Shown here: piece by piece, positions 523-22,151 of the stretch
Layout of the letters: every line of letters begins with the position of its first letter
Numbering within the stretch: position 1 is the first letter of the stretch
Origin: a virus
Direction: 5' to 3' (one strand)
Virus record (IMG/VR): IMGVR_UViG_3300027503_000067
Span: 1-22,151 of that record
Length of the DNA stretch: 22,151 nucleotides
Notes under the pieces: model-generated
Told to the model about the DNA's origin: nothing
Database searches by the model: none
What the model saw: the letters and a program-made list of their open reading frames with translations, nothing else
Program-made: the position numbers and the translations under genes

Positions 523-1782
523 ATGATGAGAAGCATACACTCTCCAAAAATATTTGTGCAGATTGCAAGTTATAGAGATTTGCAATTAATACCTACAATA
601 GATGATATGTTAGCTAAAGCCAAAAATCCTAATAATTTAGTATTTGGAATATGTTGGCAGTATGGAGATGATGAGGACATATCGTATTATGATAATAGAA
701 AAAACTTTAGAATATCAAAACATCATTATTCAGAAAGTAATGGATTAGGTTGGGCAAGAAAAATAACAAATGAACTTTATGATGGTGAATTGTATACTTT
801 ACAGATAGATTCACATCATAGATTTGTTAAAAATTGGGATTCAATATTATTAGAAGATTTTGGAGAGGCTTTAAAGTATTCAACAAAACCTATTATAACA
901 ACATATTGTACTCCATTTGACCCAAGTATAGATGAAAGTGAATATATACAAATACCATGTTTAATGTCACAATATGAGTTTAGCAGTGACAAACTTCTTA
1001 TGAGTATGCCTTGGTATATACAAGATTATGAAAGTAGACAAAGTATTATAAGAGCTAGGACTATAAGTGGTCATTTTTATTTTACATATGGAAAGTTTAT
1101 AAATGATGTACCTTATGACCCTGAAATATATTTTGGAGGATATACTGAAGAGACTACATTAAGTTTGAGAGCATTTACTCACGGATATGATTTTTACAGT
1201 CCATACAGAATGATTATGTGGCACGAATATACTAGAAGTTATAGACCTAAACATTGGGAAGACCACGGAGAAGTATCTCAAACAGAATATACAAGCACTC
1301 AAAGAGATATATTTTCAAGAAATAAAACAAGACAACTTTTTGGTCAAGAAGATAACGGTATAGTAATAAATAAAGAATATGGACTTGGTAATGATAGAAC
1401 TTTAGAAGATTATGAAATTTATGGTGGATTTAAGTTTAAGGAATGTCTAATACAAAGATATACTTTGGATGTTAAAGAACCACCAAATCCAATTTCTTGG
1501 GAAGAAGATTTCAAAACAAAAGAATATACTTTAGATTGTGTATGGGATTTACAATTCTTTAGAAATTTTAACTTTACTAAACCTAAATTCTTAACATTAG
1601 GAATACATTCAGACACTGAAGAACTATACAGAGTAGATTTATTAGATGACACTTATATAAATTTAAAAACAAATTTTTATGAAGTTACTATGAATGCTAT
1701 CAAAGAACCTAAAAAAATAGTTATGTATCTATATGACGAAGATTTAGGTTGGAGCAGCAGATACGAAAAATCTTTCATATGA
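523..1782 (+). CDS. GT60-like glycosyltransferase (polypeptide GlcNAc-transferase family)
   Basis: 419 residues. The N-terminal third matches the pattern of the family that includes Dictyostelium Skp1 GlcNAc-transferase and Trypanosoma cruzi mucin O-GlcNAc-transferase: IFVQIASYRD near residues 10-19 (sugar-nucleotide strand), FGICWQ near 41-46, and LQIDSHHRF around 93-101 with the DSH (96-98) as the presumed metal-binding DxH site. WHEYTR and RPKHWEDH lie near 233-248. Those relatives transfer GlcNAc to hydroxyproline or Thr of proteins. Residues about 310-419 form a C-terminal extension I do not recognise. The start is ATG-ATG at 523/526; either Met is possible. It is the first gene of the sugar cassette, 40 bases after the Thr-Pro protein, and its 3' end overlaps the next gene by 4 bases. 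Donor and acceptor here are inferred, not shown. Confidence 0.75.
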   Translation: MMRSIHSPKIFVQIASYRDLQLIPTIDDMLAKAKNPNNLVFGICWQYGDDEDISYYDNRKNFRISKHHYSESNGLGWARKITNELYDGELYTLQIDSHHRFVKNWDSILLEDFGEALKYSTKPIITTYCTPFDPSIDESEYIQIPCLMSQYEFSSDKLLMSMPWYIQDYESRQSIIRARTISGHFYFTYGKFINDVPYDPEIYFGGYTEETTLSLRAFTHGYDFYSPYRMIMWHEYTRSYRPKHWEDHGEVSQTEYTSTQRDIFSRNKTRQLFGQEDNGIVINKEYGLGNDRTLEDYEIYGGFKFKECLIQRYTLDVKEPPNPISWEEDFKTKEYTLDCVWDLQFFRNFNFTKPKFLTLGIHSDTEELYRVDLLDDTYINLKTNFYEVTMNAIKEPKKIVMYLYDEDLGWSSRYEKSFI

Positions 1783-2972
1783 GAATAGCATTTGTAACTA
1801 TAGGTAATAGTCGTAGAAGTAACTATGTTAACGGATACACTATGAGATATCAAGGAGGAAGTTGTTCAGGTACTGATACAAGTGTTATATTGGTTGCTGA
1901 ATATTTAAGTAAGTTAGGAAATGAAGTTGTAATTGCTACTGATGATTTAGAACCACAACTTAAAGAAGAATATATAAATTTAGGAATTTTATACAATTAT
2001 GGATATGAGTATAGAGGAGTATTATATACTAATTTGAATTTTGATGGCATATCAAATAAAAAGTTTGATATATTAGTTAGTATGCTTTGGTTTGAAAACT
2101 ACGATTCATTACCTATATCTGTTAGTAGTTCTGTAATATACTGGTCTCATATGCAATGGATATATGGCATTGACAGCATAGTAGATTATATAAAAAAACA
2201 TAATTTAAATTTAGGTTTTGTACATATATCTGATTGGGAAAAGAAAATGACAGGAAATCTTTCAAAATTTGTACAAGAAAATTTGGGAGAAGAACATATA
2301 AAAATAACAACAATACCTAATCCAGTAATGGATGAAATGTTAGATAAAGTATTAAAAGAAAAACCAATTAAGAAACCTCATAAATTTATATTTCACGCAT
2401 CTTGGGCGAGGGGTGGAGACATAGCTTACTCAGCTATTAATAAACTAGAGTATCAAGATAAAGAGTTCCATGCATTTGATTATTTAATAACAATACCTAG
2501 TAACAATACAGATTTTTTTTATAGACATAACGGAGTAGATAAAAAAACACTGTTTAAACATTTAGCTGAGAGTGAATATTTTGTGTACCCATTATATACA
2601 CCATATCAAGACGTTCATAAGGATACATTTTCATGTGTAGTAGCTGAAGCTATAGCTTTAGGTGTAACGGTTATCACGTATCCTCTAGGAGCATTATATG
2701 ATAATTATAGAGACTATTGTCAATGGCTTCAGCTCCCTGAAGGTTTTGATTTAGATATAATTCAAAACGAACCATTAACTAAAGATTTGGAAGGTAAGTT
2801 TAAAATAGATGAAAATATTATACATATGATTCATTATTTAGAACAGAACCCACAAGTTAAAAATTTTGTCAAAGAAAATGGATATAACTATATTACATCG
2901 AAATACAAATTAGAAAATATAGGTAATATGTGGTATAATTTTATAAATGAACTATATAAAAATGAATCATAA
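1779..2972 (+). CDS. GT4-like (GT-B fold) glycosyltransferase
   Basis: 397 residues starting MRIAFVTIGN. I chose the ATG at 1779, which forms an ATGA overlap with the previous stop; an in-frame ATG at 1749 would only add a non-family N-terminus. It shows the two-Rossmann layout of GT-B enzymes: an N-terminal strand followed by a Gly-rich stretch (YQGGSCSGTDTS), the interdomain IPNPV near residue 200, HASWARGGD at the start of the second domain, and a C-terminal nucleotide-sugar motif DTFSCVVAEAIALGVTV with the spaced acidic residues typical of Glycos_transf_1. It probably adds a sugar from a nucleotide donor in the cytoplasm. Specificity cannot be read from the sequence. It overlaps the next gene by 11 bases, which implies co-translation. 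Confidence 0.8.
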   Translation: MRIAFVTIGNSRRSNYVNGYTMRYQGGSCSGTDTSVILVAEYLSKLGNEVVIATDDLEPQLKEEYINLGILYNYGYEYRGVLYTNLNFDGISNKKFDILVSMLWFENYDSLPISVSSSVIYWSHMQWIYGIDSIVDYIKKHNLNLGFVHISDWEKKMTGNLSKFVQENLGEEHIKITTIPNPVMDEMLDKVLKEKPIKKPHKFIFHASWARGGDIAYSAINKLEYQDKEFHAFDYLITIPSNNTDFFYRHNGVDKKTLFKHLAESEYFVYPLYTPYQDVHKDTFSCVVAEAIALGVTVITYPLGALYDNYRDYCQWLQLPEGFDLDIIQNEPLTKDLEGKFKIDENIIHMIHYLEQNPQVKNFVKENGYNYITSKYKLENIGNMWYNFINELYKNES

Positions 2973-3645
2973 AATTGTTAGTTTTTTTGGAAATAATGTG
3001 CCAAAAGAAATAGTAGTATTACAGAAAAAAGTATTCGATTTTTATGAAATAAATATAGAGCAAATATCTTTTAAGGAAAATACTAATAATGATAGACATG
3101 CTATAGCTATAGAAGATTATTTAGTATATAATAATGATTGGGATTCAATAACATTATTTGATGTTGATTGTATACCAATTAAAAAAGATTGTATAGATAT
3201 AGCTTTAGAATATATAAAAGATAATAAAACTATATATGGTAATGCACAAGCATCTAATTTATTTGATATTAATTTATATAAAACACCTCCATTTGTAGCA
3301 CCAAGCTTTATTAGTTTTACTAAAGAATTGTGGGAAAATTCCAATTGTAAAAGTTTTAAATTTTCACATTACCCAAATCCTAATGGATATCTGACTGAAG
3401 TTGATGTTGCTGAAATGTTTACAAGAGAAAATGAAAAGCAAGGTAATACTATAGTACTAGCATATCCTATAAAAACATTAACAGATTATACTTGGAAATA
3501 TGATGGTAGTTTTGGATATAAAAAATTTAGTTATGGTAATGGTACTGAGTTTGAAAGTGGAACTTTTCACAATTTTCAAATAAGAGTGCCTGATAAACAA
3601 AAAATATTTATTGATTATTGTAATAAATTATTATATGAAAATTGA
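2962..3645 (+). CDS. Small GT-A-like glycosyltransferase, DVD motif
   Basis: 227 residues from the ATG at 2962 (MNHKIVSFFG); an ATG at 2947 would add five residues and deepen the overlap, so I prefer 2962. The core is WDSITLFDVDCIPI near residues 60-73, where DVD (67-69) sits after a hydrophobic strand as in the DxD metal/nucleotide site of GT-A enzymes. Further on come PPFVAPSFISF and a C-terminal ESGTFHNFQIR, consistent with an acceptor-side His. It has no signal peptide or membrane segment. I cannot assign it to a CAZy family by eye. Its position between GT4-like and GT25-like genes, with 11-base overlaps on both sides, makes a role in the same glycan likely. Confidence 0.65.
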   Translation: MNHKIVSFFGNNVPKEIVVLQKKVFDFYEINIEQISFKENTNNDRHAIAIEDYLVYNNDWDSITLFDVDCIPIKKDCIDIALEYIKDNKTIYGNAQASNLFDINLYKTPPFVAPSFISFTKELWENSNCKSFKFSHYPNPNGYLTEVDVAEMFTRENEKQGNTIVLAYPIKTLTDYTWKYDGSFGYKKFSYGNGTEFESGTFHNFQIRVPDKQKIFIDYCNKLLYEN

Positions 3646-4327
3646 TAAGTTTTTTGAAAAAGGTTTTTATATAAACTTAGATAGAAGATACGACAGAAGG
3701 GAACAGTTCGAGAATGAAATGAGTAATTATGGATTAGACAACTTTTTTGAAAGAATTTCTGCTGAAGATTCTATAAATGAAAGTGATTTCGTAAAAAAAC
3801 ATTATTACTGTGCATTAACTTATTATAAATTATTTCAAAGAATTTATGATGAAAAATATGAAAAAATTTTAATTTTTGAAGATGATGCTTATTTTTATAA
3901 TTGTAAAAATTATCGAGGTATTGAATTAGTTGAAACTGCTTTAGATGAGTTAGAATATTTTAGTGATTGGCAAATGATATACTTTGGAGGACATCCAATA
4001 CATAAAGTAGATATAGTTTCTAAAACATTAATGAGAGCACCTACTATATTAGCAACTCATGCTGTAGGATATAAAAGAGAGGTAGTAAAAATCATATTAG
4101 ATAATTATAAGGTTTTTCAAGATTCTGCAATAGATGGATGGTTAGGTCAAAGACAAGATATAGTAAAATATATAATATACCCAATTGCAGTACCTCAAAG
4201 AATTTCTAAAAGTGATTTAGATGCCAGTGGAGATGGAGTTGGAATCAACGGTTTTAAAGATAGTTATAGAGTTGTTAAAAAAAATTATATGATATATGAT
4301 AAAAAAATCAAAAATACTAACAAGTAA
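3635..4327 (+). CDS. GT25-family glycosyltransferase (LPS galactosyltransferase type)
   Basis: 230 residues from ATG 3635 (MKIDKFFEKG); an in-frame ATG at 3611 lies deep in the previous gene and adds nothing family-like. FYINLDRRYDRREQFENEM (residues 11-29) is the N-terminal signature of Glyco_transf_25, in which INL.RR.DR precedes a long helix. KILIFEDDAYF (77-87) provides the acidic EDD metal site. Bacterial members are mostly beta-galactosyltransferases of lipooligosaccharide; eukaryotic relatives glycosylate collagen hydroxylysine. Galactose transfer is the best guess and would give an acceptor for the GT11-like enzyme encoded next. It overlaps the preceding gene by 11 and the next by 32 bases. 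Confidence 0.8.
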   Translation: MKIDKFFEKGFYINLDRRYDRREQFENEMSNYGLDNFFERISAEDSINESDFVKKHYYCALTYYKLFQRIYDEKYEKILIFEDDAYFYNCKNYRGIELVETALDELEYFSDWQMIYFGGHPIHKVDIVSKTLMRAPTILATHAVGYKREVVKIILDNYKVFQDSAIDGWLGQRQDIVKYIIYPIAVPQRISKSDLDASGDGVGINGFKDSYRVVKKNYMIYDKKIKNTNK

Positions 4328-5132
4328 TTATATAACTAGTAGATTACAAGGTAGAACAGGAAATATGATGTTCCAAATAGCACATGGTTTTGCCAAATCA
4401 TTAGAATACAATAGACAATATGTAGCACCATTCGCTGAATCTTCAAGTAAGCATTTAGAAAAAACATTATTTAGAAAAATAGATTTTAATATACCAAATA
4501 CATCAAATAGTGATATTTCTAAATATGTATGGAGTAAATTTGAATATGAAGAATTAATACCTGATAATGAAATACCTACTGTTTTTTGTGGTTGGTATCA
4601 GAGTGAAAAATATTTTGCAAAATACAAACAAGTTATAAAAGATATGTATTCACCAACATTAGATTTTGTTGATAGAGCATTAAAAGATTTTCCATTCTTT
4701 ATAGATTCAACAGTTGCAGCAATAAATGTTAGACGTGGAGATTATTTAGATTTCCCAACAAGACATCCTGTAATTAGTGTAGAATATATAGAATATGCAT
4801 ATACTAAATTACCAAAACACGATATTCTAATAGTAGTTAGTGATGATATAGAATGGTGTAGACAGAATATTAAACTACCAAATGTAGTATATATAGATAA
4901 TTATATAGATTGTGATGGTTTATGGCTATTATCATTATGTGATTATTTTATTATATCAAATTCTACATTTTCTTGGTGGGGAGCTTATTTGTCTAGAAAT
5001 TCAAATAAAGTTGTAATCGCACCTGATACATGGTTTGGCCCTGATATATTAGAAAAAACTGATGATATATATTGTCAAGATTGGATTAAGATACCTACAA
5101 GATGGGAAAATGGTTATATTAAATTAAAATAA
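4296..5132 (+). CDS. GT11-family fucosyltransferase-like protein
   Basis: 278 residues. Three GT11 landmarks are in order: LQGRTGNMMFQIAHGFA (17-33; the family consensus is LxGGLGNQMFQYA), INVRRGDYL (143-151; the GDP-fucose-binding HxRRGDY block) and SNSTFSWWGAYLS (221-233). Family members are alpha-1,2-fucosyltransferases that usually cap a galactose, and the length is normal. Deviations (GRTGN for GGLGN, NVRRGDY for HxRRGDY) leave donor specificity open. The only credible start is the ATG at 4296, inside the end of the GT25 gene. No GDP-fucose synthesis genes are in the window, so the donor would come from the host or from elsewhere in the genome. Confidence 0.85.
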   Translation: MIKKSKILTSNYITSRLQGRTGNMMFQIAHGFAKSLEYNRQYVAPFAESSSKHLEKTLFRKIDFNIPNTSNSDISKYVWSKFEYEELIPDNEIPTVFCGWYQSEKYFAKYKQVIKDMYSPTLDFVDRALKDFPFFIDSTVAAINVRRGDYLDFPTRHPVISVEYIEYAYTKLPKHDILIVVSDDIEWCRQNIKLPNVVYIDNYIDCDGLWLLSLCDYFIISNSTFSWWGAYLSRNSNKVVIAPDTWFGPDILEKTDDIYCQDWIKIPTRWENGYIKLK

Positions 5133-5135
5133 GAT

Positions 5136-6215
5136 ATGATAGATTATTTAATAGTAGGTTCAGGATTTTATGGTTCTATATGTGCATACGAGCTGAATAA
5201 AAAAGGTTACAAAGTATGTGTAATAGATAAGAGAAATCATATAGGAGGAAATTGCTATACTTCAAATAGAGATGGCATCCATGTTCACGAATATGGCCCA
5301 CATATATTTCATACATCAAATAAAAAAGTTTGGGAATGGGTAAATCAATTTGTATTGTTTAATAATTTTACATTGAGACCTGTAGCATCCTATAAAAATG
5401 AAATATATTCATTACCTTTTAATATGTGGACTTTTACAAAATTTTGGGGAGATGCATCACCAAGCATAGTAAAAGAAATTATTAGATTACAATCAAAACA
5501 TATAAATAACCCAAAAAACTTAGAAGAACAAGCTATTAAATTAGTAGGAACAGACGTATACGAAGCATTAATAAAAGGATATACTGAAAAGCAGTGGAGA
5601 AAGAAAGCTACAGAATTACCTAAAGAAATAATAGAAAGATTACCTGTAAGATTTACATATGACAACAATTATTTTAATGATACTTACCAAGGAATACCAA
5701 TAGGAGGATATACTCAAATTTTTGAAAAATTGTTGGAAAATATAGATATTATATTAAATACTGATTATTTTAATTCAGAACTACCTACTCATAAAAATGT
5801 TATATACACGGGTGCTATAGATAAATTTTTTGATTATAAATATGGATTATTAGAGTATAAAACAACTAGATTTCAGCATACTCAAGTATCTGTTCCAGAT
5901 TTTCAAGGAACTGCAATGATAAACTATACAGATATAAATATCCCATATACTAGAATTGTAGAACATAATCATTTTGATTATAAAAAAGTAGACTCTACAT
6001 GGATAACTTATGAATATCCAATAGAATACACGGAGATATCAGAACCCTTATATCCTGTAAATGATTTTGAAAATACTGAAAAATATAAAAAATATAAAAA
6101 TTTGGCAGATGAACTCCCAAATGTACATTTTGGTGGCAGATTAGCTGAATATAAATACTATGATATGCATAATATAATTGAAAATGCTTTAAATTATATA
6201 GATAGTAATTTTTAA
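5136..6215 (+). CDS. glf: UDP-galactopyranose mutase
   Basis: 359 residues, close to the usual 365-390. The N-terminus has the FAD-binding LIVGSGFYGS (5-14), followed by the acidic/Gly-rich VIDKRNHIGGNCYT (29-42) and the family signature HEYGPHIFHT (51-60). VEHNHF, TYEYP and the C-terminal GGRLAEYKYYDM (from 333) complete the Glf pattern. The flavoenzyme interconverts UDP-galactopyranose and UDP-galactofuranose, so the cassette can make a furanose donor. It begins 3 bases after the GT11-like stop and ends the cassette; a promoter-like motif follows. None of the five upstream transferases is a recognisable galactofuranosyltransferase, so one of the less typical ones (the GT4-like or the DVD protein) is the candidate user. 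Confidence 0.95.
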   Translation: MIDYLIVGSGFYGSICAYELNKKGYKVCVIDKRNHIGGNCYTSNRDGIHVHEYGPHIFHTSNKKVWEWVNQFVLFNNFTLRPVASYKNEIYSLPFNMWTFTKFWGDASPSIVKEIIRLQSKHINNPKNLEEQAIKLVGTDVYEALIKGYTEKQWRKKATELPKEIIERLPVRFTYDNNYFNDTYQGIPIGGYTQIFEKLLENIDIILNTDYFNSELPTHKNVIYTGAIDKFFDYKYGLLEYKTTRFQHTQVSVPDFQGTAMINYTDINIPYTRIVEHNHFDYKKVDSTWITYEYPIEYTEISEPLYPVNDFENTEKYKKYKNLADELPNVHFGGRLAEYKYYDMHNIIENALNYIDSNF

Positions 6216-8270: not shown

Positions 8271-9854
8271 ATGCAAGAGGAAGTAAAAGTAAAAAAAACT
8301 TTAAAAGAAATAATTGAAGAAGAGTATAAGAAATGTTCTGTTGACCCTACTCACTTCATGAAGAAGTATTGTGTAATACAACATCCAAAAAAAGGTAAAG
8401 TTAATTTTAAACTATTTTCATTCCAAGAACAATGTTTATTTGATTTTGAAGAAAATAGATTTGTTGTAGTTAATAAAGGAAGACAGTTAGGATTATCCAC
8501 ATTGACAGCAGGATATATCTTGTATAAGATGACTTTTAATTCTGATTTTAATGTATTAGTTATTGCAACAAAACAAGAAGTTGCTAAAAATCTAGTTACT
8601 AAAGTTAGAGTTATGTATGAGAATTTACCATCATGGTTAAAAGCTGCATCTATAGAAGATAACAAATTAAGTTTAAGATTAAAAAATGGCTCACAGGTTA
8701 AGGCAGTTGCTGCTTCTGTAGATGCAGGTCGTTCTGAAGCATTATCATTGCTTGTGATTGACGAAGCAGCTCATATAGATACTATAGATGATATCTGGAC
8801 AGCAGCACAGTCCACACTATCTACAGGGGGAGGAGCACTACTAATATCATCCCCAAACGGAACAGGAAACTTGTTTCATAAAAAATGGACATTAGCACAG
8901 CAAGGTAAAGAGTTTTTTCCAATAAGATTACCATGGTATGTGCATCCTGAAAGAGACCAATCTTGGAGAGATGAGCAAGATAATCTTTTAGGCCCAAAAA
9001 TGGCTGCACAAGAGAATGATTGTGATTTTATAACTTCAGGACATACAGTTATTGATGGGCCCATCATAGAATGGTACAGAACCACATATGCTCAAGACCC
9101 TATAGAAAAAAGAGGTTTTGATGCTAATTACTGGATATGGGAATATCCATCATATCAAAAATCATATATAGTTTCTGCTGACGTTGCAAGAGGTGATGGA
9201 GAAGATGAAAGTGCATTTGTTATAATTGATGTAGAAACTGTAACAGAGGTTGCAGAATATAAAGGTGCTATAAGCACTAAAGATTTTGGTAATATGTTAG
9301 TATCGGTAGCTTCTGAGTGGAATAATGCGTTATTAGTTATAGATAATAATGGAGTTGGATGGGATACTGTTCAAGTTGCTTTGGATAGAGGATATACTAA
9401 TTTGTTTTATCACTATAAAAATGACCCTTATGTAGATGTTTCAAAACATTTAGTAGGTTCATATGACTTACAGGATAGAAGTAAAATGACCCCAGGTGTA
9501 TCCATAAATCTAAAAACAAGACCTGTAATGATTTCTAAATTAGAAACTTATTTTAGAGAAAAATCTCCAACATGTAAAAGTGTTAGGTCTTTAGACGAAT
9601 TTAATACATTCATATGGAAAAATGGTCGGGCTGAAGCTCAAAGAGGATATAATGATGATTTAACAATGTGTTGGGCAATGGCATTTTGGGTTAGAGATAC
9701 AGCATTAAAATTAAAACAACAAGGTATAGAAATACAGAAAGCTACTTTAGATAATTTTAAAAAATCACTATATTCAAGTAATAATCGTAATCATAAGACT
9801 TGGACTCAAGAATTGCCAAATAAAGAATCAGATTCATTAAAATGGTTATTATAA
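8271..9854 (+). CDS. terL: Terminase large subunit (T4 gp17-like)
   Basis: 527 residues. The N-terminal ATPase has the terminase Walker A variant VNKGRQLGLST (67-77), Walker B LLVIDEAAHID (160-170) and the coupling motif LISSPNGTGN (191-200). The C-terminal RNase H-like nuclease shows ADVARGDGEDES (303-314), VIDNNGVGWDT (357-367) and the acidic pair in YNDDLTMCWA (460-469), with Asp304, Asp358 and Asp462/463 as likely metal ligands. It translocates DNA into the prohead through the portal encoded next and cuts concatemers. The start abuts the stop of the preceding gene. The portal gene begins 22 bases downstream; in T4 the sheath and tube genes (18, 19) would lie between, and they are absent here. 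Confidence 0.97.
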   Translation: MQEEVKVKKTLKEIIEEEYKKCSVDPTHFMKKYCVIQHPKKGKVNFKLFSFQEQCLFDFEENRFVVVNKGRQLGLSTLTAGYILYKMTFNSDFNVLVIATKQEVAKNLVTKVRVMYENLPSWLKAASIEDNKLSLRLKNGSQVKAVAASVDAGRSEALSLLVIDEAAHIDTIDDIWTAAQSTLSTGGGALLISSPNGTGNLFHKKWTLAQQGKEFFPIRLPWYVHPERDQSWRDEQDNLLGPKMAAQENDCDFITSGHTVIDGPIIEWYRTTYAQDPIEKRGFDANYWIWEYPSYQKSYIVSADVARGDGEDESAFVIIDVETVTEVAEYKGAISTKDFGNMLVSVASEWNNALLVIDNNGVGWDTVQVALDRGYTNLFYHYKNDPYVDVSKHLVGSYDLQDRSKMTPGVSINLKTRPVMISKLETYFREKSPTCKSVRSLDEFNTFIWKNGRAEAQRGYNDDLTMCWAMAFWVRDTALKLKQQGIEIQKATLDNFKKSLYSSNNRNHKTWTQELPNKESDSLKWLL

Positions 9855-9876: not shown

Positions 9877-12855
9877 ATGGCAGAAGAATCATATAGGTCA
9901 AGATTGGCTAAATTATTCTCAACTAAAGTAGTAGTTAGAAGAACAGGTAAGAATAGAATAAAAGTATACGATACTTCAAAATTACAATCAGTAGGTACAA
10001 GAGATAGTGCATATAGAGGTAGATATACAGGAGTTCATACCTATAAATCGCACGGATATTACACACCTAACGCTTCTACAAACTTCTTTGCTACAAAATT
10101 AGAATTATATAGAGATTATGAAGCAATGGATGAAGACCCAATCTTAGCATCTGCATTGGATATATATGCTGATGAGTCAAGTATAAGGTCTGCTGATGGT
10201 TCAATTTTGAAGATAAAGACACAGAACGATAAAGTAAAACAAATATTACATAATTTATTCTATGATATATTAAATATAGAATTTAATTTATGGCCTTGGA
10301 TAAGGAATACTTGTAAATATGGAGATTTCTACCTAGCATTAGATTTGGATGAAGAATTAGGTGTTGTAAATGTAATACCTATGTCATCATATGATGTTCA
10401 GAGATTAGAAGGATTAGAAGCACAACAGTTTGGTATGAAATCTGATATGCAGAATAGATTTGACCAAGGTGGGATGGCTGAGTATAATCCGTATGATGTT
10501 AAGTTTAAATACGAACCATTAACAAATAAAAACCCATTTTTAAAAGAAGAGTATGAGTATTATGAAATAGCTCATTTTAGATTGTTATCTGATACTAATT
10601 TTTTACCCTATGGAAGGTCTATGTTAGAACCTGCAAGAAAGGAATTTAAAAGATTAGCTTTAATGGAAGATGCTATGATGATTCATAGAATTATGAGAGC
10701 ACCTCAAAGAAGAGTCTATAAGATAGCTGTGGGTAATCTTAGTCCTAACGAGATTGACCAGTATATGCAGAAAATTATGGATGATACAAAAAAGACTCCA
10801 TACATAGATGAGAAAACAGGACAGTATAATCTGAAGTTCAATTTGCAAAATATGTTGGAAGATGTCTATATTCCTGTTAGGGGAGGAGATAACCAAACAG
10901 AAATTGATACTTTAGATGGAATGAGCAACGATGGTTTTATAGAAGACGTTGATTATATTAAGCAGAAAATGATGGCTGCTTTAAAAATACCTAGAGCATT
11001 CTTAGGATTTGATGAAAATTTGGAAGGAAAATGTGTAAGTCCAAATACAAAAATACCTTTAATAAATGGAACAGTAAAAACAGTAGGAGAATTAATTGAG
11101 GATTATAATAATGGAATAAAGAATTATGTGTATTCTTTAGATGAGAGTACAAACAATATTGTTCCAGGAGAAATTGAGTGGGCAGGATTTACTCGAATGA
11201 ATGCAACTGTTTTAAGAGTTCACTTAGATAATGACAAGTATATAGACTGTACTCCTGACCATAAATTCTTACTAAGGGATGGAACTTGGGTAGAGGCTCA
11301 ATATTTAAATGTTGAAGATTCTCTAATGCCTTTATATATATCAAATGGAGGTTATAAAAACAACTATACAAAAGTATATCACCCTTCTAGTGGAAGATAT
11401 CAATTAGTACATCAAATGGTGGCAGAATACTACGGTAAACGACAAGAAGGAAAAGTAATACATCATATTGATTTTAATAGTAGAAATAACAACATAGAAA
11501 ATTTAGATTGTTCTATGAATTTTTGGGAGCATAGAAAATTCCATTCGGATAATGCAAAACTTTTGCAGACTAGTCCAAATATGATAAGATATAATAAAAG
11601 TGAAGCTAAAAGAATAAATTCTAGTATTGCAGGTAGATTAGGAGGAATTATATCAGCACCTAAGTTAGTAGATTGGATTAAAAATAATAATCCTTGGAAT
11701 AAAAAAGAAGATTTATACATTAGTTGTGCTATTTGCAATTCTAAGTTTAAGATACCTCATTATAGACTTAATGAAGCAAAAACTTGTTCTAAAAGTTGTT
11801 ATAAGAAATATTGTAGAAATATAAAATTGAATAGTGTATTATATAATGAAAAGTATAGTAGTGTAAGTATAGAACAGTTAATAGATATAGCTAAAAATTG
11901 TAACTCTTTCTCACAATTAAAAGATGAACTAAATATTGATAGAACTACCTTATATAAAATATTTAAGTATAATAACATTGATAAAATTGATTTCATATTT
12001 AAAAATATGCCTTTAGCTTTAGAAAATAAAGCTTTTATGCAAAATTATAGAAAATATGAGTATGAATATAAAAATCATAAAGTATTAAGATTAGAATTAC
12101 TAGAGGATAGAATAGATACTTGTGATTTAACTATAAAAGACTATCATAATTTCGGAACTGATGCGGGAGTTATTATACATAATTCTGTATTAGCAGCAGA
12201 AGATGTAAGATTTGCGAGAACTATAGAAAGAATTCAAAGTATATTTGAATCTGAATTATATAAAATAGCAGTAATACATTTATTTTTACAAGGATATACT
12301 GATTCATCTTTAATTGATTTTGAATTAAGTTTAAATAATCCATCTATAGTATATGAGAGACAGAGGGTTGAGATACTAAATGAAAAGATTACACTAGCTA
12401 ATGCTATGAAAGATTCTAAATTAGTTTCTAGAAAATATATTTATGAAAATGTATTGAATTTAAGTAGAGACGAATGGGTTGCTGAAGAGGAGCTATTGCT
12501 AAAAGACCAGGCTACAGCTTGGAGAATGGAACAAATAGCAAATGAAGGTAATGACCCCAAGCAATCAGGAGAAGCTAAAGGTACTCCACACGCAATAGCT
12601 CAAATGCACGTAGCAAAAGAACCTGTAGAGAGTGATGGTGGAGAGTTTGGAGATTTGGGAGGAAGACCTAAATCAAATAAAAAGTTTGGAACTGATAGAG
12701 ATAAATCAAATGGAAGAGACCCACTAGGATATCAAAGAGTTATGTCAGATACAGGATTTTCAACAAGAGGGGAGGGAGTAGATAGAACTAAATTACTAAA
12801 GCAATTACAAGATAGTTTTGGAAAGAGAAGTTTAAATGAAATGTTAGATTCATAA
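9877..12855 (+). CDS. Portal protein (T4 gp20-like) interrupted by an HNH intein
   Basis: 992 residues in one frame; removing the intein (residues 386-769) leaves a portal of 608. The N-extein contains features of gp20-type portals: YEAMDEDPILASALDIYADE, an RSMLEPARKEFKR stretch, HRIMRAPQRRVYKI and GGDNQTEIDTLDG, then VDYIKQKMMAALKIPRAFLGFDE up to the insertion. The C-extein resumes SVLAAEDVRFARTIERIQ, the conserved block after the insertion, and ends in a flexible Gly/Lys-rich tail. The portal forms the dodecameric vertex through which terminase packs DNA and on which the prohead nucleates. The leader AGTAAACAAATG has no Shine-Dalgarno. The frame is intact, so function depends on protein splicing. 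Confidence 0.95.
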   Translation: MAEESYRSRLAKLFSTKVVVRRTGKNRIKVYDTSKLQSVGTRDSAYRGRYTGVHTYKSHGYYTPNASTNFFATKLELYRDYEAMDEDPILASALDIYADESSIRSADGSILKIKTQNDKVKQILHNLFYDILNIEFNLWPWIRNTCKYGDFYLALDLDEELGVVNVIPMSSYDVQRLEGLEAQQFGMKSDMQNRFDQGGMAEYNPYDVKFKYEPLTNKNPFLKEEYEYYEIAHFRLLSDTNFLPYGRSMLEPARKEFKRLALMEDAMMIHRIMRAPQRRVYKIAVGNLSPNEIDQYMQKIMDDTKKTPYIDEKTGQYNLKFNLQNMLEDVYIPVRGGDNQTEIDTLDGMSNDGFIEDVDYIKQKMMAALKIPRAFLGFDENLEGKCVSPNTKIPLINGTVKTVGELIEDYNNGIKNYVYSLDESTNNIVPGEIEWAGFTRMNATVLRVHLDNDKYIDCTPDHKFLLRDGTWVEAQYLNVEDSLMPLYISNGGYKNNYTKVYHPSSGRYQLVHQMVAEYYGKRQEGKVIHHIDFNSRNNNIENLDCSMNFWEHRKFHSDNAKLLQTSPNMIRYNKSEAKRINSSIAGRLGGIISAPKLVDWIKNNNPWNKKEDLYISCAICNSKFKIPHYRLNEAKTCSKSCYKKYCRNIKLNSVLYNEKYSSVSIEQLIDIAKNCNSFSQLKDELNIDRTTLYKIFKYNNIDKIDFIFKNMPLALENKAFMQNYRKYEYEYKNHKVLRLELLEDRIDTCDLTIKDYHNFGTDAGVIIHNSVLAAEDVRFARTIERIQSIFESELYKIAVIHLFLQGYTDSSLIDFELSLNNPSIVYERQRVEILNEKITLANAMKDSKLVSRKYIYENVLNLSRDEWVAEEELLLKDQATAWRMEQIANEGNDPKQSGEAKGTPHAIAQMHVAKEPVESDGGEFGDLGGRPKSNKKFGTDRDKSNGRDPLGYQRVMSDTGFSTRGEGVDRTKLLKQLQDSFGKRSLNEMLDS
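11032..12183 (+). mobile_element. Full-length intein with HNH homing endonuclease in portal gene
   Basis: 384 residues (portal residues 386-769). It starts with Cys1 in CVSPNTKIPLINGTVKTVGEL (block A). Block B is DCTPDHKFLLRDGTWVEA with Thr459 and His462. The C-terminal splicing end is DLTIKDYHNFGTDAGVIIHN, followed by Ser+1 of the extein, so the penultimate His and terminal Asn are present and splicing should work. Between them lies an HNH nuclease (VIHHIDFNSRNNNIENLD, residues 527-544, plus His555/556), a four-Cys zinc motif (C617, C620, C637, C641) and a helix-turn-helix-like part (about 664-702). Boundaries are read from the splice motifs and the restored portal sequence EGK-SVLAAEDVRF. 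The endonuclease would spread the element into intein-less portal genes. Confidence 0.95.
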
Positions 12856-21073: not shown

Positions 21074-22151
21074 ATGCCTAATTGGCGTAAAGTAGTAGTT
21101 AGTGGTTCTAATGCAGAACTAAATAGATTAAATGTATCCACATCATTTACATCAAGTGGAATACATTATCCAATATCAGATGGACTGTCAGGTCAATTCA
21201 TACAAACAGATGGTTTAGGAAATTTAACTTTTAGTGGTGTATCAACAGTAACTGAAAACGTTAAAAATGTTTCAGGACACACATTGTATAAAGGTACTCC
21301 TGTCCACGCAACAGGCTCAGGAACTTCAGGTAATCTTGTAGGTGTTATACCTGCAAGTGCATCTATTGCTTCCACAATGCCATCAACATTTATTTTAGCT
21401 CAAACACTAGCTCCTGATGAAGAAGGTTTAGGTATTATATCAGGATTGATAAATGGAGTAGATACTTCTGCTTTTCAGAATGGACAAGTAATATATGTAG
21501 GAACAAATGGAGGATACACTAACGTAGCTCCAACGGGTTCGAATCTAATACAGAATTTAGGTATTGTAACCAAAGTACATCCAATTAATGGTGGAGGTAT
21601 CGTTTTGGGTGCAGGTAGAGCAAATGCAACTCCAAATTTATTAAATGGATATGTTTTTTATGGAACTAATAACAGGTCAGTAGCAAGACCTTTAGGTGAT
21701 ATAATATCAGGAAGTATATTTAATTATACAGGTTCATTCACAGGAAGCATAAAATTACCAACAATACCACAAGGTACTTCTGAGACAAATATAGTACTCG
21801 TTAATGGAAGTGGAGGTCTAGTATATAGAAGTAATTTATCATTAACAGGAGCTCAAGGTAACCAAGGCCCACAAGGCAATCAAGGCCCTACAGGTCTGCA
21901 AGGTACAACAGGAGCACAAGGCAATCAAGGCCCTACAGGTCTGCAAGGTACAACAGGTGCTCAAGGAGCACAAGGTTTTCAGGGAAGGCAAGGCCCACAA
22001 GGCAATCAAGGCCTTACAGGTCTGCAAGGTACAACAGGTGCTCAAGGCAATCAAGGTATCCAAGGTACAGTTGGTGCTCAAGGTAACCAAGGCCCTACAG
22101 GTCTGCAAGGTACAACAGGAGCACAAGGTAACCAAGGCCCTAAAGGTCTGC
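21074..22151 (+). CDS. Tail fibre with collagen-like repeats (3' end outside window)
   Basis: 359 codons are visible with no stop. The N-terminus MPNWRKVVVSGSNAEL matches the fibre at 19781. Residues about 60-190 form a recognisable fibre domain: VKNVSGHTLYKGTPVHATG, APDEEGLGIISGLINGVDTS, GQVIYVGTNGGYTNVAPTGS, NLIQNLGIVTKVH and GAGRANATPNLLNGY. TGSFTGSIKLPTIPQGTSE is the linker. From 21848 a collagen-like Gly-X-Y tract (GAQGNQGPQGNQGPTGLQ and so on) runs off the edge. Such tracts form trimeric rods in phage fibres. The receptor-binding tip is probably downstream of the window. The ATG follows AATATATAAA, with no Shine-Dalgarno. Confidence 0.85.
   Translation, partial: MPNWRKVVVSGSNAELNRLNVSTSFTSSGIHYPISDGLSGQFIQTDGLGNLTFSGVSTVTENVKNVSGHTLYKGTPVHATGSGTSGNLVGVIPASASIASTMPSTFILAQTLAPDEEGLGIISGLINGVDTSAFQNGQVIYVGTNGGYTNVAPTGSNLIQNLGIVTKVHPINGGGIVLGAGRANATPNLLNGYVFYGTNNRSVARPLGDIISGSIFNYTGSFTGSIKLPTIPQGTSETNIVLVNGSGGLVYRSNLSLTGAQGNQGPQGNQGPTGLQGTTGAQGNQGPTGLQGTTGAQGAQGFQGRQGPQGNQGLTGLQGTTGAQGNQGIQGTVGAQGNQGPTGLQGTTGAQGNQGPKGL
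21848..22151 (+). repeat. Collagen-coding tandem repeat, 45-base unit
   Basis: More than 100 Gly-X-Y triplets' worth of residues in one frame (about 101 residues visible), built from a 45-base, 15-residue unit GNQGPTGLQGTTGAQ. Adjacent copies start at 21875 and 21920 and are nearly identical; later copies are shuffled (QGFQGRQGPQ, QGIQGTVGAQ). Gln and Asn replace the usual Pro and Lys in many Y positions. The high DNA identity implies recent expansion by recombination or slippage. Confidence 0.92.

Follow-up and report, generated by a model that had tools for sequence, protein, structure and literature searches.

Inteins in phage head-packaging genes have been described for mycobacteriophages, where they occur in PORT and TerL, with splicing and DNA cleavage demonstrated for those in TerL (PMC5050341); these reside in other phages and are likened to the element described here by host gene alone. 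The huge phage LR756508 (484 kb) has an intein in the same gene and at the same register (EGK/C ... N/ST), with an HNH-type nuclease. The N-terminal 174 residues of this intein, the third in its portal, are 35% identical to those of the element studied here, but it differs in the C-terminal part of the nuclease, ends in KN instead of HN and is accompanied by two further inteins elsewhere in the portal. On the LR756508 contig (L017, 3962-8122) the three portal inteins are located at YGK/C..HN/SVLEG, KQL/C..HN/TLLEDAML and EGK/C..KN/STLSQQS, and an upstream ORF (from 2099) contains another intein, ending HN/CLWGGDEG. In the haloarchaeal MCM-d intein (PMC10643990) the invaded alleles always show Ser at position +1, whereas the empty alleles mostly have Pro, a position at which Ala is found here. 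The MCM-d intein differs in its LAGLIDADG nuclease and archaeal helicase host, and the neighbouring MCM inteins occupy separate, fixed sites. Among curated profiles, the splicing domain matches that of an RtcB-related intein best (NCBIfam NF052663, 2.4e-36). The RtcB host is part of this model, and the score of 126 bits lies far below the cut-off of 1050; the host protein is different. By sequence, the nearest solved structures are the NrdJ-1 intein (PDB 8ubs) for the splicing part and the endonuclease I-HmuI (PDB 1u3e) for the HNH part, both with weak similarity (3.9e-9 and 0.0027, respectively). Movement of an intein to a new site is regarded as very rare, since flanking homology is required for homing (PMC1635734), and inteins that occupy different sites in the same protein are seldom close relatives (PMC2814812).

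The stretch of DNA that was analysed (the window), a virus contig, is 22,151 bases long and contains a portal gene interrupted by an open intein frame (Table 1). The Portal_T4 domain of the host protein lies within a terminase-portal-protease-capsid cluster, as expected for a T4-like gp20: the upstream neighbour encodes the terminase large subunit (8271-9854), and the other neighbours are a prohead protease, the major capsid protein and a PhoH-like gene. A run of glycan genes (523-6215) adjoins the terminase gene and encodes a GlcNAc transferase, GT25 and GT11 proteins and a UDP-galactopyranose mutase. The left contig end (3-238) carries tandem ACACCAACACCAAC-type repeats with periods of 30 and 48, while collagen-like GxQG repeats in units of 18-81 bp (21854-22151) lie in a probable tail-fibre gene that is cut short by the other end. 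An Rfam search of the window gave 0 matches.

Table 1. Features of the interrupted portal gene and its intein, in window coordinates.
Feature	Position	Strand	Evidence or remark
T4-like portal (gp20) gene, interrupted	9877-12855	+	single open frame spanning both exteins and the intein
Portal N-extein (gp20)	9877-11031	+	Pfam Portal_T4 1.8e-71; phrog_213 portal 2e-69; ends ...NLEGK
384-aa intein with nested HNH endonuclease, in frame	11032-12183	+	Pfam Intein_splicing 1.3e-16 (residues 8-384), HNH_3 5.2e-8; exact empty allele L018
N-terminal splicing (HINT) half, residues 1-102	11032-11337	+	NCBIfam intein_Nterm 1.1e-11; alignments
Cys1	11032-11034	+	TGT; first intein codon
TPDH, block B	11251-11262	+	within N-terminal HINT half
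HNH domain core	11404-11544	+	HNH_3 at residues 125-160; I-HmuI (1u3e) among profile matches
HNH catalytic motif HHIDFNSRNNNIENLDCSMNFWEHRKFH, residues 144-171	11461-11544	+	intact in 25/29 members
Four-Cys putative zinc motif C232-x2-C235-x16-C252-x3-C256	11725-11799	+	invariant in 8 sequences; 24/29 members
Three-helix HTH-like unit, residues 280-313, presumed DNA binding	11869-11970	+	AlphaFold2 helices; weak HTH_Cbp1 (E 0.0085)
C-terminal splicing half, residues 348-384, ending VIIHN	12073-12183	+	alignment; Asn384 codon AAT ends at 12183
Portal C-extein	12184-12855	+	Ser+1 codon TCT 12184-12186, where empty allele L018 has Ala (GCC)

A reading made from the sequence alone had placed an intein at exactly these coordinates, and the domain matches confirm it. 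The insert lies in frame between intact host halves and is absent from L018 and from 78 other portals; the match set is far beyond chance. The residues expected of a class 1 intein, all of which that reading had named, are present (C1, T74-H77 as the block B TxxH, H383-N384 and S+1). In an alignment of 8 intein sequences, Cys1, T74, D76, H77 and His383-Asn384 are invariant and P75 is replaced by Leu in a single sequence. The HNH residues H144, H145, N152, N153, N157, H167 and H171 are equally invariant, as are the four cysteines of the second motif, which presumably binds zinc. An AlphaFold2 model of the intein has a mean pLDDT of 76, with the splicing halves at high confidence, and helices 280-287, 293-300 and 304-313 form the HTH-like unit; the three nuclease elements of the sequence-only reading (HNH, four-Cys motif and HTH-like domain) are all recovered. 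A Foldseek search with the model returned 58 PDB chains with E up to 0.001, the matches listed being inteins or related HINT proteins, and gave a probability of 1.00 to intein structures, in agreement with a HINT fold. A degenerate copy is ruled out, since the window copy contains no stops or frameshifts and its HNH motif is intact.

The insertion site corresponds approximately to T4 gp20 393/394, an assignment that is made by alignment across a gap in the loop. In T4, residues 374-398 constitute the tunnel loop, which connects to a bent helix (399-428) and protrudes into the channel; its deletion blocks full-genome packaging (PMC4493910). The intein of the window thus maps by alignment to the loop that lines the portal DNA channel. 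Because of this location a functional portal likely depends on intein splicing: an unspliced 384-aa insert should not be tolerated in the tunnel loop, and the precursor should not form a working DNA channel. The segment had been expected to be highly conserved, which holds for the sequence after the site, TLAAEDVRFARTIER, but not for the three residues at the site itself, which vary among empty portals (EGK, GSK, SGK, NGK and others). The empty loop follows the pattern LG-xxxxx-[EGSN]-[GS]-K-[AS]-x-LAAED.

Viral contigs were scanned with intein, portal and junction patterns as queries, all sequences being metagenomic contigs. The intein-bearing set comprises 29 non-identical portals including that of the window, together with two partial ones (L110 and L124). 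The intein is rare, as 79 of the 80 portals nearest to that of the window are empty. No relative was detected in genome_contigs, which was searched for a bacterial source at the sensitivity used. Portal genes with and without the intein at the same site, which had been proposed as a check, were found in the pair L003 (intein) and L018 (empty). Over shared flanks of 2.0 kb upstream and 1.4 kb downstream, the identity of these contigs in 150-nt bins ranges from 95 to 100% (mostly 98-99%), and besides the intein the junction differs only in GCC (Ala) in L018 versus TCT (Ser) in L003 at +1, plus a nearby synonymous change. The same element also occurs in the independent contig L002 (99.93% identical). 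L116, with phage flanks 93% identical to the window, has a mini-intein of 143 aa from which the nuclease is deleted. All states are therefore represented within the window's own clade: empty (L018), full (window, L002, L003, L119) and mini (L116). Further reduced inteins occur in L123 (152 aa), in L133 (206 aa) and, with 202 aa when TGA is translated as Trp, in L147 together with its copies. In L130 the splicing domain is retained, the Cys4 motif is absent and the nuclease tail differs. The natural empty allele, the mini-inteins and the three insertion registers described below go beyond the sequence-only reading.

Related inteins are present at three codon positions of the loop, all falling within four consecutive residues and each directly before a Ser. 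In register R1 the intein follows GK (window, L003, L005, L109, L116-L119). R2 lies two codons before R1, ahead of SKAT (L004, L006, L007, L013, L099, L104, L107, L147), and R3 three codons before R1, ahead of SGKAT (L010, L106, L123, L126-L131, L133, L134). Splicing domains resemble one another to roughly the same extent across registers (best pairs 76% identity) and within a register (means of 68-74%); for L133 (R3) and L118 (R1) the N-exteins are 77% and the inteins 72% identical. Grouping of R3 as one clade is rejected by AU tests on the full alignment, the nuclease only and the splicing domain (p_AU 0.0045, 0.0035 and 0.0047, respectively). Monophyly of R1 is rejected only in the splicing-domain alignment (AU p 0.024), and that of R2 is not rejected by the AU tests. 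A safe count from these trees is at least two register changes, the number in the full-length tree; the five changes of the splicing-domain tree are not claimed, since the longer alignment needs only two.

We consider it probable that a single HNH intein family has shifted two or more times among these three positions, one to three codons apart, each move ending where a Ser is available as the +1 nucleophile. The spliced loop, counted from the conserved G to LA, has 10 residues in 28 of the 29 intein-bearing portals (L129 is one residue longer), equal to the 10 residues in all 81 empty portals examined. This constancy implies that most likely the boundary moved and the host sequence was preserved. 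The target of the nuclease is probably the strongly conserved DNA on the downstream side of the site; in a recipient that has diverged, the junction formed by recombination would then not have to coincide with the register of the donor, and selection would retain those products that stay in frame, preserve the host loop and have Ser at +1. Alternatively, a single ancestral insertion may have remained in place, with small compensating indels in the two exteins, codons added to one and removed from the other, giving an apparent shift. The registers do partly track the intein tree, the two changes of the full-length tree being as few as rare events predict. However, each such shift needs two matched indels that preserve the loop length, canonical host residues are retained on both sides of the intein, and the dispersion of R3 over more than one clade requires more than one event. 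Paired extein indels are consequently less likely than movement of the intein, and we regard them as an unlikely source of the registers.

The +1 residue is Ser in 29 of 29 invaded alleles, whereas Ser is present at the R1 position in only 9 of 81 empty portals and at any of the three register positions in only 26 of 81. Insertion ahead of a pre-existing Ser was considered as a general rule and rejected, as the closest empty relatives of R1 (L018, Ala) and of R3 (L041, Gly) lack Ser. The absence of Ser from these empty relatives suggests that Ser was often brought in or selected.

Other inteins were met among the relatives. The same intein family is carried by T4-like contigs in which TGA encodes Trp (L014/L111, L107, L144, L146-L148). 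L014/L111 was considered as a broken intein and discarded as such, as its stops are TGA codons; read as Trp, they yield an intact mini-intein at a different portal site (L111, FLSQ/C..KN/SADGRGS). A distant HNH intein (24%) in L113 (3501-4631) occupies a further portal site, MEA/C..HN/TPEISSALD, which brings the intein sites of gp20 to at least five. A relative of the window intein is located in L114 (3501-4040) at EGSNP/C, in a gene that resembles one for a ribonucleotide reductase.

That the element is a mobile class 1 intein in a T4-like portal is held with high confidence. The prediction that the window copy is mobile and not degenerate has stood: with its open frame, the empty allele L018 and the comparison of L010 and L011, the intein looks mobile, as judged from sequence. 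The inteins of L010 and L011 are 99.2% identical, with a dS of 0.027, against values of 1.23 and 0.96 in the synonymously saturated exteins. This contrast indicates, at the level of sequence, a recent transfer between diverged portals, and together with the patchy presence of the intein, for which the portal tree demands 12 gains or losses, it reveals natural spread between alleles. Identity of the two contigs falls to 80-90% directly upstream of the intein and stays at 100% for ~60 nt downstream before dropping there too, a tract that hints at a cut or conversion on the C-extein side. L010 and L011 could in principle be assembly chimeras, but this would require two misjoins in each, and both flanks differ.

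The HNH part has a dN/dS of 0.09-0.16 in 6 of 7 pairs with measurable change and of 0.32 in the pair of the window and L005, while one pair shows zero nonsynonymous changes in this part; for every intein domain and every pair tested dN/dS is below 0.4. These values point to purifying selection on the HNH domain. Substitution of catalytic HNH residues in close copies had been set beforehand as the outcome that would speak against mobility. The motif is complete in all 25 of the 29 distinct relatives that retain the domain, and the remaining 4 have lost the domain mostly or wholly by deletion, with no point decay. An already inactive nuclease in an element that is only vertically inherited is very improbable. 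The inteins of the window and L003 have indeed diverged to nearly the same extent as the flanks (90.6% versus about 87% identity), and the copy in the window may for that reason be inherited and not newly homed. The intact HNH motifs and low dN/dS nevertheless disfavour inactivity, and the 12 gains or losses and the near-identical inteins in diverged portals disfavour vertical inheritance alone. It is even less credible that the intein is kept because its splicing regulates portal supply and times head assembly, as had been suggested, since the location in a functional loop and the conditional splicing reported for some other inteins are set against a near-identical phage without the intein (L018), a phage with only a mini-intein (L116), 79 of 80 near portals that are empty, which is at odds with a conserved regulatory benefit, and purifying selection on the nuclease, which fits selfish upkeep. 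The near-identical empty phage and the 79 empty portals make splicing a cost to be cleared and not a conserved switch, and no observation made here favours a role in the timing of head formation.

For the mobile intein a life cycle can be proposed that would accommodate its parts, its empty, full and mini alleles, the transfer between diverged portals and the purifying selection, all of them read from sequence comparisons. The intein would be synthesised within the portal polypeptide and then remove itself, leaving an uninterrupted portal, by way of an N-S shift at Cys1, the block B His, transesterification to Ser+1 and cyclisation of Asn384. When phages co-infect a cell, the nested HNH nuclease would cut portal alleles that lack the intein, the L018 allele being the defined target, and recombination would copy in the intein along with the adjoining C-extein codon (Ala to Ser). 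The family would in this way pass through empty, full and mini (nuclease-less) states, with three neighbouring codon positions occupied.

The portal thus provides a new intein site, the channel loop of a head-assembly protein. The neighbouring registers bear on the unsettled question of how inteins come to occupy new sites. Keyword searches of open-licence papers gave no precedent for intein sliding or near-allelic shifts, and the novelty of the register pattern is to this extent provisional. Matching empty alleles and mini-inteins are at hand for each stage, so that short synthetic alleles could be used to test the question. If the register changes are real, near-allelic shifts that arise while an intein homes into diverged alleles would offer a way to new intein sites.
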